64,000 bases of DNA from Allokutzneria sp. A3M-2-11 16 (lineage in GTDB: Bacteria > Actinomycetota > Actinomycetes > Mycobacteriales > Pseudonocardiaceae), in assembly GCF_024213555.1 (NCBI RefSeq), contig NZ_JANAVO010000017.1, positions 1 through 64,000 of the forward strand. The letters are read 5' to 3'. Below the pieces are notes generated by a model. It saw nothing but the letters and a program-made list of their open reading frames with translations, was not told the DNA's origin and made no database searches. The position numbers and the translations under genes are program-made. This document shows, piece by piece, positions 39,127 to 63,022 of the stretch. Positions within the stretch are counted from its first letter, which is position 1, and each line of letters begins with the position of its first letter.

Positions 39127-39150
39127 CTCCCAGCTGTTTCCGGCTGCTTT

Positions 39151-39290
39151 CCGGCGTGGGGTCGGCTTGACCTGGGGCCCCTTGCGCGTGCCCTTGGGCC
39201 TCTCGGGGGCACGGGATGAAACCCCGGCCCTCGCGGGGGAGCGTATGGCACGCGCACCCCAGGTAAAGCCTCGGTTGCGTTGCGCCCCTT
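39151..39290 (+). repeat. Left inverted repeat of HNH cassette 1
   Basis: Contains a 107-nt palindrome, 39164-39270: GGCTTGACCTGGGG faces CCCCAGGTAAAGCC with one mismatch, and GCGCGTGCC faces GGCACGCGC. Nearly identical in inverted form to 40731-40870, and also to 62645-62750. Confidence 0.88.
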
Positions 39291-39305
39291 GCCTTCCAGC
39301 CTGCG

Positions 39306-39336
39306 CCGGGGCGTCCGTCCACTCTGGACGCCCCGG
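39306..39336 (-). terminator. Hairpin after HNH gene 1
   Basis: CCGGGGCGTCC and GGACGCCCCGG form a perfect 11-bp stem with a 9-nt loop, immediately after the HNH stop. There is no T tract. The same hairpin follows the second HNH gene. Confidence 0.6.
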
Positions 39337-39339
39337 GGT

Positions 39340-40560
39340 CTATAGCTTCAGCGGGCAGTCCACCCTGATGTTCCGCAGAGGTTCCTGGTCAGGGTCGATC
39401 CACTTCGGTGGGATGAACGCCGGTATCCCGTGGTCGAAAATGATCTCCCAGTCCTGATCATGGATCACATGGTGGTGATGCACGCACAGCAGGACGAGGT
39501 TGTCGAGATCGGTCGGGCCGCCGTCGATCCAATGCACCACATGATGAGCTTCTGTCCACGAGGGTGGCCGATCACATCCGGGGAAGGCGCATCCCTTGTC
39601 CCTCACCGCCAGTGCGCGTTTCTGGGCGAGGGAGGCCAGGCGTCGTTCGCGTCCGTAGGCGAGGGGTTCACCTTCTCCGCCGAGCACGATCGGGATGACT
39701 GCGGTGTCGCAGGCGGTCTGCCGCAGCAGGTCCGCTGACATGGGCTGGCCGGTGTGGGTTTCCCCGCAGCCGGTCCTGTGCTCCAGGTCGTCCAACCCCA
39801 TGGTGACGATCAACAGGGTACGGGGCAGTCCGGGCATGTCCTGGACCGACATCGCCATGGTCATGGCCTCGATGAAAGCATCGGCCAACCGCTGCTCAAA
39901 CCTACGGGGGTCTTTCTCGCCGTTGACGGACTTGGGTTTGGCCAACGCGGAGAGGAAGTTCCAGATCTTCTCGCCGTTGATCGGATCAATCATCGCCTTG
40001 AGATGCAGGCACCCGTCCTGGTCACGGCCCATCCGCGCTGATCGCCGGGCGAGCGCTTCTTGTTCGTCGCGGTAGACGCCGTCGGGGTCGACGTGCTGTC
40101 GCACGCGTTTGCCGACCACCATCAGATCACGCGGGTTCACCTTGCGTGCCGCCTTCGCCAGAGCCGCGTCGGCCTTGGCCGCGTACTGCTCGGGGATGCG
40201 CTTGATGGCATCGGAGATGACCAGCGCGTGTTCGCCGCTGATCGTTCCGGTGTAGACGGCTTGCCGGGTGCGGGGCAGTTTCGGTAGTTCGTGGACCAAT
40301 CGCTTGCGGCGGTTGGCTTCGGCAGGAGCGATATTCAACTCGCTGCGCAGCAGGATCGCGAGATCCTTACAGCCGCGTGAGGTGTGCAGGCCGCGTTCCT
40401 CAGCCTGGGTGGCGACATCGGTCTTCACGGCGGTGAGCAGATTACTGATCCGCTCCAACTCCTTCAGCAACGCGACATGGTCCTTCTCGGAGAGTCGGTA
40501 GGAGTCGTTGATCTCGATCTCGGTCGTCAGCATGTCTGTGATTGCCTTGGTATCCAACAT
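39340..40560 (-). CDS. DUF222 / 13E12-type HNH endonuclease (copy 1)
   Basis: 406 residues. An N-terminal helical DUF222 region (about 1-250) with LTAVKTDVATQAEERG and SGEHALVISDAIKRIPEQ leads to a C-terminal HNH nuclease: KGCAFPGCDRPPSWTEAHH, WIDGGPTDLDNLVLLCVHHH, with the Cys pair and three His. The family (REP13E12 proteins of mycobacteria) is widespread and its role is not established. It is closely similar to the second copy, especially in the last 110 residues. It starts at ATG after GGGGG and an AT-rich promoter region. Confidence 0.92.
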   Translation of the reverse strand: MLDTKAITDMLTTEIEINDSYRLSEKDHVALLKELERISNLLTAVKTDVATQAEERGLHTSRGCKDLAILLRSELNIAPAEANRRKRLVHELPKLPRTRQAVYTGTISGEHALVISDAIKRIPEQYAAKADAALAKAARKVNPRDLMVVGKRVRQHVDPDGVYRDEQEALARRSARMGRDQDGCLHLKAMIDPINGEKIWNFLSALAKPKSVNGEKDPRRFEQRLADAFIEAMTMAMSVQDMPGLPRTLLIVTMGLDDLEHRTGCGETHTGQPMSADLLRQTACDTAVIPIVLGGEGEPLAYGRERRLASLAQKRALAVRDKGCAFPGCDRPPSWTEAHHVVHWIDGGPTDLDNLVLLCVHHHHVIHDQDWEIIFDHGIPAFIPPKWIDPDQEPLRNIRVDCPLKL

Positions 40561-40577
40561 GATTCACCCCCTTCTCC

Positions 40578-40619
40578 GTGGATACCTCTATTATCTCAAG
40601 ACGCAAGATCGACATCCAA
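40578..40619 (-). promoter_or_regulatory. Promoter and conserved 5'-UTR motif of HNH gene 1
   Basis: On the minus strand TTGGAT (40614-40619) and GATAAT (40590-40595) are spaced by 18 bp. GGTATCCAC (40578-40586, minus) follows in the untranslated leader and is also present upstream of HNH gene 2. Confidence 0.6.
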
Positions 40620-40730
40620 GTACCAGTGGGTGAATCCCTGCACGCCAACGGTTCCAGCGTGTCACCGAATTCGGCATTCGGGGAGGGTCCCCCAAGTGGG
40701 CGACACCAATCGCAAGTCCCAGCGAAACAT

Positions 40731-40870
40731 AAGGGGCGCAACGGGATCGAGGCTTTACCTGGGGAGCGCGTGCCATACGCTCCCCCGCGAGGGCCGGGGT
40801 TCCATCCCGTGCCCCTGAAAGGCCCAAGGGCACGCGCAAGGGGCCCCAGGTCAAGCCGACCCCATGCTGG
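40731..40870 (-). repeat. Right inverted repeat of HNH cassette 1
   Basis: Inverted counterpart of 39151-39290. The hairpin core is 40751-40857, 107 nt like the left one, starting GGCTTTACCTGGGG and ending CCCCAGGTCAAGCC. Differences from the left copy are few substitutions. Confidence 0.88.
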
Positions 40871-40879
40871 AAGCCAAAT

Positions 40880-41580
40880 TCGCTTGGACGACAACGAAAA
40901 ACGCCACACCGCCGAGAACGACGACCTCGTCCTCAAGCTCTACCCGCCGGTGCACCGCGACGAATGCGCCCTGGAATCCGGCGTGCTGCGCGATCTGGCT
41001 CCTCATGACGCGCCTGCACGGCCGGAACCTGGGCGAGGTCTGGCCGGAGCTGACGGCATCAGAGCGCGACGAACTGGCCGACCAGCTCGGCGAGAGCCTG
41101 GCGATCCTGCACAGGACGACAGTGCCGACGCTGCCCGACGTGGACTGGGACAAGTTCGTGATCGGGCAGCGCGCGAAGCTGGTCGAGCACCATCGGAAGC
41201 GCGAACTCGACCCGGTGTGGCTGGACCAACTGGACGGCTTCCTGAACACGGTGGACCTGATCACGCCGCGCGCGCCGGTGCCGCTGCACACCGAGGTGAT
41301 GCCCGCATCTGCTTACACACAAAGGAAAACTCAGCGGGCTCTTCGACTTCGAGCCTGCGATGCGCGGCGCGCGGGAGTACGAGTTCGCGGCGACCGCCGG
41401 GTCCTGAGGAGGGTGCTGAAGGCGTACGGCTTCACCGATCTCGGGCCGGAGCTGTCCCGCCAACTGCTGGGGATGACGATCATCCACGTGTACAGCAACC
41501 TCGGCTGGTACATGCGCGAGCTGGGCGTCCCGGCCGAGAAGACCCTGGACGCCCTCGCCCGCCACTGGTTCCCGCTCTAG
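40880..41580 (+). pseudogene. Aminoglycoside phosphotransferase-family pseudogene
   Basis: Fragments of one APH-like kinase appear in all three frames: LVLKLYPPVHRDECALE near the 5' end (frame of 40578), then LLMTRLHGRNLGEVWP through LAILHRT (frame of 40864), then GKLSGLFDFEPAMRG in a third frame around 41320-41395, ending at a TGA, and finally VLRRVLKAYGF to LARHWFPL back in the 40864 frame. The 5' end and the nucleotide-binding start are missing next to the HNH cassette. At least three frame changes and a deletion mean it is dead. Its end overlaps the convergent FAD dehydrogenase by 4 bp. Confidence 0.8.
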
Positions 41581-60381: not shown

Positions 60382-61194
60382 ATGTTGTTGTCCTCGCAGG
60401 TTTTCGTGGTGGCGATCGTGCTCGCCTGGACGGGCGGCGTGAAACTCTTCGGCCCCGCGCCCGGCCTCGCCGCGCGCCGCACCGCGCTCGACCGCCTGGT
60501 GGGCAAGGGCCGCGAGCTGACCGCCTACCGCGCGGTCGGCGTCGTCGAACTGCTGATCGCCGCCGCGCTCGCCCTGCCCCCGGTGGAGTTCGCCGAGGGC
60601 CTCGCCGCGACCGCTCTGGCCCTGGGTTTCGTCGCGTACCTGGTGTACGCGCGGCGAGTCCGGCCCGAGTCCGACTGCGGTTGCATGGGCGGCAAGGGCG
60701 GTCCGATCGGCTGGCGTTCGCTGAGCCGCGCCTGCCTGCTCGTGCTCGCGTCCGCGATGGCCGCTGGCGCTGGCCAGGAAGCCGCTTCGCCTCTGGTCGT
60801 GCTCGCCGGTCTGGCTGTTTTCGTGGCCCTGTCGGCGGAGCTCGACCGGTACTGGCTGTTGCCGTTGCGGCGCTTGCGGGTCCGCCTCAGCCATCCGCTG
60901 GCCGGGCTTCCCGTGCGGGTCCCGTTGGCGGCGGGCGTCGAGCAGGTGGAGCGCAGCCCCGCCTACCGCGCCGTCGCGGGCTTGTTGCGTTCCGACGTGC
61001 GCGATACGTGGACCGAGGGCGAGTGGCGCTTCGTGAGCTATTCCGCCCGCTACCAGGACCGTGCCGCGACCGTCGTGTTCGCCGTCCCGACCGATCGGTT
61101 CGTCCCGGAGGAGGTGCAGGCGGCTCTGGTGGACGAGAGCACCGAGGAGACCTTGTGGAGGTTCGCGCCCACTGCCAGCGTGGGTTTGGCTTGA
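60382..61194 (+). CDS. MauE/DoxX-family redox-associated membrane protein
   Basis: 270 residues. Four N-terminal helices match MauE, which supports disulfide formation in methylamine dehydrogenase, with ESDCGCMGGKGGP carrying a Cys pair between helices 3 and 4 (about residues 97-108). The C-terminal 120 residues are soluble and unlike MauE. The stop TGA and the last seven or so codons coincide with the left repeat of HNH cassette 2, so the native C-terminus may have been replaced. Good GGGAGGGAG site upstream. Confidence 0.8.
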   Translation: MLLSSQVFVVAIVLAWTGGVKLFGPAPGLAARRTALDRLVGKGRELTAYRAVGVVELLIAAALALPPVEFAEGLAATALALGFVAYLVYARRVRPESDCGCMGGKGGPIGWRSLSRACLLVLASAMAAGAGQEAASPLVVLAGLAVFVALSAELDRYWLLPLRRLRVRLSHPLAGLPVRVPLAAGVEQVERSPAYRAVAGLLRSDVRDTWTEGEWRFVSYSARYQDRAATVVFAVPTDRFVPEEVQAALVDESTEETLWRFAPTASVGLA

Positions 61195-61270
61195 CCTGGG
61201 GCGCGTGCGCCCTTCGCGCGTGACCGTGTGGCACGCGCACGCCAGGTAAGTCTCCTTTCCGTTGCGCTGC
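61175..61270 (+). repeat. Left inverted repeat of HNH cassette 2 (internally deleted)
   Basis: Starts CCAGCGTGGGTTTGGCTTGACC, matching the cassette 1 outer end, but the hairpin is only 61188-61251: GGCTTGACCTGG faces CCAGGTAAGTC and GCGTGC faces GCACGC. The inner 40 bp present in the other copies are missing. Confidence 0.75.
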
Positions 61271-61271
61271 T

Positions 61272-61302
61272 CCGGGGCGTCCGTCCACTGTGGACGTCCC
61301 GG
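61272..61302 (-). terminator. Hairpin after HNH gene 2
   Basis: CCGGGGCGTCC and GGACGTCCCGG pair with one G-T; the loop holds the GTCCACTGTGGAC palindrome (61283-61295). Same position and design as in cassette 1. Confidence 0.6.
61283..61295. repeat. GTCCACTGTGGAC palindrome
   Basis: 13-bp copy in the hairpin after HNH gene 2; cassette 1 has GTCCACTCTGGAC at the same place, one mismatch. Confidence 0.6.
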
Positions 61303-62523
61303 CTATAGCACCAATGGGCAATCCACCCTGATGTTCCGCAACGGCGCCTGGTCAGGGTCGATCCATTTCGGTGGGATGAAGCTCGGTATCCCGTGCTCGA
61401 AGATGATCACCCAATCCTGTTCGTGGATCACATGATGGTGATACACGCAGAGCAGGACGAGGTTGTCGAGGTCGGTCGGTCCGCCGTCGATCCAATGCAC
61501 CACATGATGAGCTTCTGTCCACGAGGGAGGCCGATCGCAGCCGGGGAAGGCGCATCCCTTGTCCCGCACCGCGAGTGCTCGTCGTTGGGCGAGTGAGGCG
61601 AGTCGTCGTCCGCGTCCGTAGGCGAGGGGTTCACCCTTCTCCCCGAGCACGACCTCAGCGATATCGGCATCGCAGGCGACGTGCTGGGCCAGGTCCGGGG
61701 ACACCGGCTGACCAGTGTCAGTCCGGGCACACCCGGTCTTGTCCTTGAGGTTGTCGGCGTTCATGGTCATGACCAGCAGCGAGCGGGGCAAGCCCGGGAT
61801 GTCGTGGTGGGCCATCGCGATGGTCATGGCCTCGATGAAGGCATCGGCCAACCGCTGTTCGAAGGTGCGGGGGTCTTTCTCGCCGTCCACGGATCGGGGT
61901 TTGGCCATGGCGAGGAGGAAGTTGGAGACCTTCTCACCGTCGAGTGGACCCATCGTGGCACTGAGGCGCACACTCCCGTCCTTGCCTCGGGACATCCGCG
62001 CCGCACGCCGCTCGATCGCGTCCTTCTCATCCTTGTAGACGCCGTCGGGGTCGACCACCGTCCGCACGTACTTCCCCGCGCGCTTCAGGAACTCCGGGTC
62101 CAACGTCGGAGCGACATCCGCCAGCACACGTTCAGCACGTGCCTCGTGCTCCGGCGGGAGACGCTTGATGGCATCGGAGATCACCAACGCGTGTTCACCA
62201 CTGATCTCACCCGCATACATCGCCTCCCGGGTATTCGGGAGTGTCGGCAACTCCCGCACCAACCGAGTCCGCCGCTTCGCCTCACCGGGATGGATCTGCA
62301 GCTTGTTACACAACAACATCGCCAAGTCCTTGCACCCGTACGTGGCGTGCAAGACACGATCGTCGGCCTGAGTGTTGGCATCGGTCTTCACCGCCATCAG
62401 GAGCCTGCCGATCGTCTCCAACTCCGACAGGAATTCGAGGTGGTCGTTTTCGGAGAGCTGGTAGGAGTCGTTGGCCGCCAGCTGCGCGGCGAGCATCTCC
62501 CGCATTGCCTTGGTATCCAACAT
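61303..62523 (-). CDS. DUF222 / 13E12-type HNH endonuclease (copy 2)
   Basis: 406 residues, the same length as copy 1. DUF222 region 1-250, then HNH nuclease KGCAFPGCDRPPSWTEAHH and WIDGGPTDLDNLVLLCVYHH. The C-terminal 110 residues are nearly identical to copy 1 while the N-terminal half has many substitutions, suggesting gene conversion or selection on the nuclease. ATG 62523 is chosen over 62556 because GGGAGGGAGG precedes it and copy 1 starts at the same residue. Confidence 0.92.
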   Translation of the reverse strand: MLDTKAMREMLAAQLAANDSYQLSENDHLEFLSELETIGRLLMAVKTDANTQADDRVLHATYGCKDLAMLLCNKLQIHPGEAKRRTRLVRELPTLPNTREAMYAGEISGEHALVISDAIKRLPPEHEARAERVLADVAPTLDPEFLKRAGKYVRTVVDPDGVYKDEKDAIERRAARMSRGKDGSVRLSATMGPLDGEKVSNFLLAMAKPRSVDGEKDPRTFEQRLADAFIEAMTIAMAHHDIPGLPRSLLVMTMNADNLKDKTGCARTDTGQPVSPDLAQHVACDADIAEVVLGEKGEPLAYGRGRRLASLAQRRALAVRDKGCAFPGCDRPPSWTEAHHVVHWIDGGPTDLDNLVLLCVYHHHVIHEQDWVIIFEHGIPSFIPPKWIDPDQAPLRNIRVDCPLVL

Positions 62524-62542
62524 GATCACACCTCCCTCCCAT

Positions 62543-62582
62543 GTGGATACCTCCACTTAATCACATCTTTTCAGCATGTCAA
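62543..62582 (-). promoter_or_regulatory. Promoter and conserved 5'-UTR motif of HNH gene 2
   Basis: Minus strand TTGACA (62577-62582) and TAAGTG (62554-62559) with 17-bp spacing: a near-consensus promoter. GGTATCCAC (62543-62551, minus) lies in the leader, as in copy 1. Confidence 0.7.
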
Positions 62583-62644
62583 ATCGTTGCCACACAAGGG
62601 AAAACCCAGGCGCCGGACAAGCGTGAGCCGCCGCTGGAACGGTC

Positions 62645-62760
62645 GGCTTTACCTGGGGAGCGCGTGCCATACGCTCATCGCGAGGGCCGGGGTTTCATCC
62701 CGTGCCCCCGAGAGGCCCAAGGGCACGCGCAAGGGGCCCCAGGTCAAGCCGACCCCACCG
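62645..62760 (-). repeat. Right inverted repeat of HNH cassette 2
   Basis: Hairpin core 62645-62750 (106 nt), starting GGCTTTACCTGGGG and ending CCCCAGGTCAAGCC, almost the same sequence as 40751-40857. Confidence 0.88.
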
Positions 62761-62855
62761 CTGGAAGTCCAGCCAACTCCGCTGGAAGTCCAGCCCGCGA
62801 ACGCTGGAAGTCGCAGCCCGCGAACGCTGGAAGCCCAGCCCGTGCAAGCCGGAAG
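62758..62855 (+). repeat. Imperfect 21-23 bp tandem repeats
   Basis: About five units built on CGCTGGAAGTCCAGCCCGCG start near 62758, 62779, 62801, 62824 and 62846. The unit contains CTGGAAG and its partner CCAG, and the same GCTGGAAG occurs once beside the right repeat of cassette 1, so the array may have grown from the cassette flank. Confidence 0.75.
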
Positions 62856-63022
62856 ACACCCCGAAACACCCCACCTTTACCCCAGATCCCACCCCACAAA
62901 TGCTCCATTCATGCGAATACATCCGACCTTTGCTTGACCGGCGCCCGGTGTCCCGTGTACCCCTGAGAACAAGACCCGAGAAACCGAGCCTCCCGCCGCG
63001 GGCTCAGCTGGAGGAGCAACCG

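Follow-up and report, generated by a model that had tools for sequence, protein, structure and literature searches.

A DUF222-HNH gene between inverted hairpin arms

The window (the whole 64,000-nt stretch of DNA analysed here) belongs to the 8.8-Mb draft genome of a member of the genus Allokutzneria (G000; 43 contigs). It carries a DUF222-HNH gene between inverted arms at 39149-39290 and 40731-40872, each 142 nt long, 94% complementary and spaced by 1440 nt, which bears out the preliminary description of this DNA, where such a gene had been placed between inverted arms with 107-nt palindromes. The features of this copy, with the basis on which each was assigned, are as follows.

39149..39290 (+): downstream arm, an inverted copy of the upstream arm, found in family A units only (inverted-repeat search, folding)
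39164..39270 (+): 107-nt palindrome in the downstream arm (sequence reading)
39340..40560 (-): DUF222-HNH gene (family A), 406 aa (Pfam domains; dN/dS)
40590..40619 (-): putative promoter in the gap between hairpin and start codon (sequence reading and copy consensus)
40731..40872 (-): upstream hairpin arm, the unit's constant part (inverted-repeat search, folding, copy comparison)
40751..40857 (-): 107-nt palindrome in the upstream arm (sequence reading; stems kept in 123 unique copies)

Folded as single-stranded DNA, the arms gave z = -2.30 (39149-39290) and -2.00 (40731-40872), with 4/200 and 7/200 shuffled sequences, respectively, folding as well as the arm itself. The protein matches DUF222 (E = 1.5e-37) and HNH (E = 6.9e-07) in Pfam. 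The nuclease had been described as the sole protein of the cassette, and no transposase is evident here: the six other overlapping ORFs of at least 90 aa have no Pfam match at E 0.01. No target duplication is visible by eye at this copy. The putative promoter consists of a -10-like GATAAT and a weak -35 (TTGGAT), and, by consensus reading, both protein families defined below have a putative promoter in this position; a promoter scan gave no site at its threshold. With a promoter 3′ of the hairpin, the hairpin should fall outside the gene’s own mRNA.

A second family A unit occupies 61175-62860 of the window. Its DUF222 domain lies at 61561-62433 (-) and its upstream hairpin at 62645-62766, with four short palindrome units on the outer side of the latter; its downstream arm (61175-61267) is decayed. 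The ORF adjoining the first cassette (40864-41580) has a partial match to a phosphotransferase family (PF01636); the region is ~0.5 kb shorter than in the congeneric genome G001, so that the ORF may be a remnant.

Linkage of hairpin and gene

DUF222 (PF02720) matches number 61 in G000. Many contigs of this draft end in or beside a hairpin or DUF222 gene (e.g. C1:43, C6:7, C7:11, C12:40, C13:41, C22:63, C40:59 and both ends of C42), so the true copy number is probably higher. In the three Allokutzneria genomes a 31-nt hairpin pattern (up to three mismatches) is matched 61, 54 and 54 times and its reversed control not once, and the recurrence is therefore not due to chance. Among 47 testable G000 gene loci (those preceded by 450 nt or more of sequence), an upstream hairpin of at least 80 nt is found at 40, always on the same strand as the gene, and is absent at seven; its end lies 128-360 nt before the DUF222 start (202-286 nt in 36/40). 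In the complete sister genome G002, for which counts cover 1.53 Mb, the upstream hairpin is present at 34/36 DUF222 matches, with a 47-nt piece at one more. The same 1.53 Mb holds 44 hairpins of at least 80 nt, 34 preceding a gene, eight preceding a gene remnant and two neither. Hairpins spread through the genome with no link to HNH genes, a case raised in the preliminary description, are thus not what is seen in G002, where 42/44 come with a gene or remnant. The hairpin belongs to the gene, upstream of it and in the same orientation, and both the anatomy and the linkage of the unit are well supported.

In the named genome collection, all 46 stretches with the exact hairpin pattern come from Allokutzneria sp. 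NRRL B-24872, which may be the same strain as G001; the count may omit the window’s own record. Outside the genus, a search of 57 relatives (up to 14 candidates scored per genome) gave one 25-nt match and nothing else, and the exact 22-nt hairpin core is absent from viral contigs. Of the 54 pattern matches in G002, 50 fall in the interval 0.42-3.91 Mb and the other four at 5.02, 7.37, 8.17 and 8.29 Mb. This clustering, together with the use of one hairpin by two very different nuclease families (below), would fit a picture in which the hairpin bound a host protein of nucleoid, replication or segregation type and the cassettes merely hitch-hiked on a recombination-prone site. A site serving the host is harder to reconcile with a gene or remnant behind 42/44 G002 hairpins, or with a hairpin that was not found outside the genus, either in those candidates or in the named collection, and we regard this explanation as distinctly unlikely.

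Two protein families and one hairpin pool

The units fall into two families, with proteins that are only ~22% identical between them: family A, the type found in the window, has an open frame of mostly ~386-417 aa, and family B of ~375 aa. In G000 any piece of the downstream arm is found at 16 loci, all of family A, with at least 110 nt at nine of them; G002 has short pieces only. The second (downstream) hairpin is absent from family B units, whose copies resemble one another from the hairpin up to roughly the stop codon, where the similarity ends. Two terminal hairpin arms are therefore not the rule, the second being seen in family A only, and the constant part is the upstream hairpin. The proposed layout of a transposable unit stands in so far as the element is dispersed and multicopy (61 matches), but terminal repeats do not define it, since B units have a single hairpin. 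This single hairpin, and the fact that similarity among B units stops at the stop codon, also led us to reject a paired-end composite transposon as the general plan.

Despite the divergence of the proteins, the hairpins of the two families are for the most part intermixed. The mean number of differences is 6.01 within A, 7.20 within B and 7.28 between A and B (17 A and 23 B hairpins), the closest A-B pair differs at one position in ~110 nt, and 10/28 polymorphic columns are common to both families. The nearest neighbour of a hairpin is in the same family in 0.77 of cases vs 0.50 expected (sd 0.08), an excess indicating that mixing is incomplete.

Gene evolution and comparison of sites between species

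The nuclease proteins are under purifying selection, with mean dN/dS of 0.13 in family A (five genes, 10 pairs), 0.057 in B1 (36 pairs) and 0.078 in B2 (28 pairs) and mean dS of 0.34-0.50 inside clades; the HNH histidines and asparagine are kept in 9/9 sequences read. In a tree of 116 proteins (59 from G000, 32 from G002 and 25 from the NRRL strain) each displayed clade with more than one member is confined to a single species, and three G000 genes are singletons.

Flanks that clearly match sequence beside a G000 element were found for 10 of the 44 hairpin loci in G002, and weaker or more distant matches for three more (2291195, 1690655, 2830203), leaving ~31-34 without a flank match to any examined G000 element locus. 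The window site is also occupied in G002, with flanks 91% identical (in G001 the flanks fall on two contigs). The window gene shares 61% aa identity with its positional counterpart in G002 vs 94-95% with its G000 paralogs, and the G002 paralogs are 97-98% identical among themselves. Five sites have clear flank matches and are occupied by a gene in each species; at all five, that gene is closer to paralogs of its own genome than to its positional partner, and at two of the five (2660290 and 923991 in G002) family A in one species corresponds to family B in the other. The first of these (C10_15596 in G000) has A in G000 and B in G002, with 23% aa identity, and ~0.7 kb of the left flank is missing in G000. 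The two flanks of the second, an A element in G002, adjoin B elements on two different G000 contigs. One of these B elements, C3_39158, is bordered on the left by the left flank of this 923-kb G002 site, and 1.4 kb to the right of it comes sequence adjoining the 2.83-Mb G002 hairpin, placing a rearrangement breakpoint on or near the element. Species-specific clades and A/B differences at common sites are compatible with gene conversion between copies; the clades could partly reflect separate amplification bursts.

Seven G002 sites were sought in G000 by their flanks. Two lack the element there: 2107788 (L317), where G000 has 160 bp in place of the element plus ~1 kb more, and 1967975 (L314), which is less clean. 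At a third, the flanks lie ~6.3 kb apart with another element between them in the opposite orientation; one site has a left-flank match only and three have no unique flank match. The comparison of loci with and without the cassette, proposed at the outset as a route to its exact ends, thus recovered sites without the element, and neither an exact empty site nor a target duplication was obtained between G002 and G000. Occupation of the same site in all relatives, the other case raised there, applies to the window site in G002, but not to sites where one species is without the element. No clear preference for convergent intergenic positions was seen (neighbours ++ 14, +- 12, -+ 7 and -- 6 of 39 rows, from a simple GC3-based orientation call and including one split-gene fragment).

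Sites without the element in one species, and the abrupt way in which B units finish at the stop codon, could also be produced by recent bursts in which an unseen transposase acts in trans on hairpin ends, the HNH protein having no role. B units, however, have no second hairpin, no target duplication is visible by eye at the window copy, and bursts would leave both the A/B differences at common positions and the low dN/dS unexplained. We judge this account highly unlikely.

A fixed stem and drifting outer arrays

A comparison of 143 cores gives one and the same consensus outer stem for upstream hairpins in all three species, with a variable inner part. In 123 unique copies, 99.2% of stem cells pair, 26/28 stem pairs are without any double change, and single changes number 0-2 per pair, one inner pair excepted. 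There is little RNA covariation in the Allokutzneria hairpin (2/28 pairs with double changes) because the stem hardly varies. To judge from the copies compared, the outer stem is fixed in sequence, beyond what mere pairing would require.

Outside many hairpins, short palindromes are repeated every 21-22 nt. The units, GCTGG(RCTT or TT)CCAGC, number up to ~seven per array (e.g. L047, L044) and are of species-specific type, with RCTT:TT at 61:1 in G000 and TT:RCTT at 55:15 in G002; a 22-nt array is also found upstream in some copies of G010, a genome from another genus. In the 1.53 Mb of G002, 18/32 matches of the first array pattern are close to hairpins, each of the 18 being on the same strand as the hairpin and on its outer side; for the G002-type unit, 55/62 matches are close to hairpins. 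The idea that the array is a genome-wide repeat targeted by the element is unsupported. Since the arrays have drifted while the stem stayed the same, homogenisation alone does not account for the fixed stem.

These properties bear on a serious alternative, in which the hairpin is a transcription terminator that insulates the cassette, either blocking read-through into the nuclease gene or ending the upstream host gene so that insertion is harmless, and ordinary homologous recombination homogenises the copies. Its position upstream of the putative promoter, on the strand of the gene in every upstream case, would suit a terminator. The Allokutzneria outer stem, however, is fixed in sequence as well as in pairing; no T tract was seen after the hairpin, and a terminator scan did not report it, a weak test as the scan takes loops of 3-8 nt only.

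Hairpins beside DUF222 genes in other genera

A DUF222 match is present in 208/295 genomes of the class. In four other genomes of the family, dispersed conserved units comprise ~100-400 nt of upstream sequence plus the gene, and end near the stop codon or at most ~0.2 kb beyond it. Loci were scored as having an upstream stem when this exceeded the 95th percentile of control windows. By this test stems were found at 16/19 loci in G010, 9/9 in G008 and 8/9 in G032, at 2/19 in G079, where DUF222-HNH genes are multicopy, and at 4/30 class-wide loci, mostly from the same order. G000 itself scored 9/16 for family A and 23/33 for family B, with none above the control maximum.

The hairpins of G010, G008 and G032 do not resemble that of Allokutzneria. 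A segment resembling GTCAAGGGCGCCTTCGGCG is common to the inner part of the G010 and G032 hairpins (L306, L268 and related loci). Parts of the G010 hairpin also have weak matches in 12/40 other genomes. Inspection by eye revealed compensatory changes in individual copies (L301, L268, L308), although template switching can also produce such changes (PMC8794818).

It is in these genera that the terminator explanation is strongest. Their unrelated hairpins keep pairing, with some compensatory changes, and the G010 consensus has a stem followed by TTTT, pieces of it matching in other genera. Weighed against the fixed stem and missing T tract in Allokutzneria, we consider it rather unlikely, and it is the main rival to the reading preferred below, above all for the other genera.

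Fold and relatives of the protein

The 35 members of group A2 all match DUF222 in Pfam and 27/35 also match PF01844. The structural model of the window protein has a pLDDT of 84.9; that of a family B protein was poor (55.6) and was left out. The window model has no PDB match at E 0.001, the best being an HNH restriction enzyme (E 0.27). In a PDB profile search the HNH part is closest to the HNH of IscB (E = 0.0031), and the IscB NCBIfam model gives 18.2 bits, over the HNH part only, vs a cut-off of 175. A RuvC-like domain is absent by Pfam from the window protein and the 35 members.

The N-terminal DUF222 part has a weak profile match to Spo0J residues 102-181 (E = 0.064), a region that we take to lie near its helix-turn-helix. 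This is a possible hint of a palindrome-binding helix-turn-helix in DUF222, to be treated as a lead only; Pfam finds no such domain in the 35 members. Of the anti-phage defence families, the best match was SduA (E 0.0091 over 19 residues), not worth keeping, and phage records gave one weak match to the protein.

The likeness to IscB, and the fact that a structure lies at the 5′ boundary, on the same strand as the gene, raise the question of an RNA-guided system, in which the HNH protein would work with a small RNA that includes the hairpin, as IscB does with its omega RNA. The likeness is limited to the HNH motif, and HNH motifs are generic; no RuvC-like Pfam domain accompanies it, there is almost no covariation within the genus, and three Rfam matches were all far below gathering scores, none of them on the hairpin. 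Such a role appears extremely unlikely.

A hairpin as proposed address for breakage and conversion

The reading we prefer, with a rough probability of 0.45, is that of a selfish HNH cassette whose hairpin serves as the address at which breakage and ectopic gene conversion occur, in a homing-like manner. We infer that the HNH protein would bind and cut the hairpin, with gene conversion as the route of copying; recognition or cutting of the hairpins by the nuclease, as suggested in the preliminary description, is compatible with the data. The unit would consist of a long hairpin, often preceded by a short palindrome array, then a promoter and the DUF222-HNH gene. A nick or break at a hairpin-bearing site would come from the HNH protein or from a replication fork that stalls there, and repair would use another hairpin-bearing cassette as template. 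Cassettes would in this way be overwritten, homogenised, swapped between families and occasionally placed at new sites.

Breakage and repair fits best because it explains together the fixed stem, the common A/B pool, the A/B differences at particular sites and the selection on the nuclease. It is strained in that A and B proteins are so different that one common recognition site is surprising, and a host factor, rather than the nuclease, could read the hairpin. The seven G000 loci lacking an upstream hairpin, the low stem counts in G079 and among class-wide loci, the same-family excess among nearest hairpin neighbours and the possibility of separate amplification bursts also speak against it. 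A wider proposal, tentative and less likely than not, is that these cassettes are an HNH counterpart of the RAYT-REP system, with a long hairpin serving in trans as common address for very different nuclease families, a single pool being rewritten by ectopic conversion and several genera having acquired their own hairpin independently.

Many actinobacteria carry DUF222-HNH genes, often in multiple copies, and the function of these genes is not settled. The constant hairpin is a concrete substrate candidate for these nucleases, open to experiment, and offers a possible mechanism for the concerted evolution of a selfish gene family.

Comparison with known systems

In TnpA-REP (RAYT) systems, as here, a nuclease gene is tied to a genomic population of palindromes, and this association of palindrome and gene holds in Allokutzneria. 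The nuclease differs, being HNH rather than HUH/Y1 (no such domain was found in the protein or the overlapping ORFs). REP palindromes also have many solo copies, whereas the palindromes here are ~107 nt long and nearly always come with a gene or remnant. Insertion sequences differ in having a transposase, in place of which only DUF222 and HNH are found here, and in the inverted repeats at both ends, which not all copies of this element possess. IscB (OMEGA) systems have the HNH motif most similar to the present one by PDB profile search, but RuvC was not found and the curated cut-off was missed by far.

Free-standing HNH homing endonucleases, such as the mob genes of T-even phages, are likewise stand-alone HNH genes between other genes, and some homing genes carry regulatory RNA hairpins (PMC2988022). 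Those hairpins lie at the ribosome-binding site of single genes; the Allokutzneria hairpin lies upstream of the putative promoter and is common to tens of copies.

The closest comparison is with REP13E12. REP13E12 proteins combine PF02720 and HNH, and in mycobacteria a prophage attachment site lies inside the repeat; we know of no hairpin partner reported for REP13E12. The window protein has PF02720 followed by an HNH motif and thus belongs to the 13E12 family, as the preliminary description had recognised, and the units are similarly dispersed and multicopy. REP13E12 has been linked to DUF222 (PMC10589994), and in M. tuberculosis its loci are gene-conversion hotspots, the repeats being described as lacking a defined biological function (PMC13061034). 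The present units differ in that two protein families use one hairpin. In one literature collection, covering titles and abstract openings, no hairpin tied to DUF222-HNH genes was found in print. What is new relative to 13E12-type dispersed nuclease repeats is this hairpin partner.
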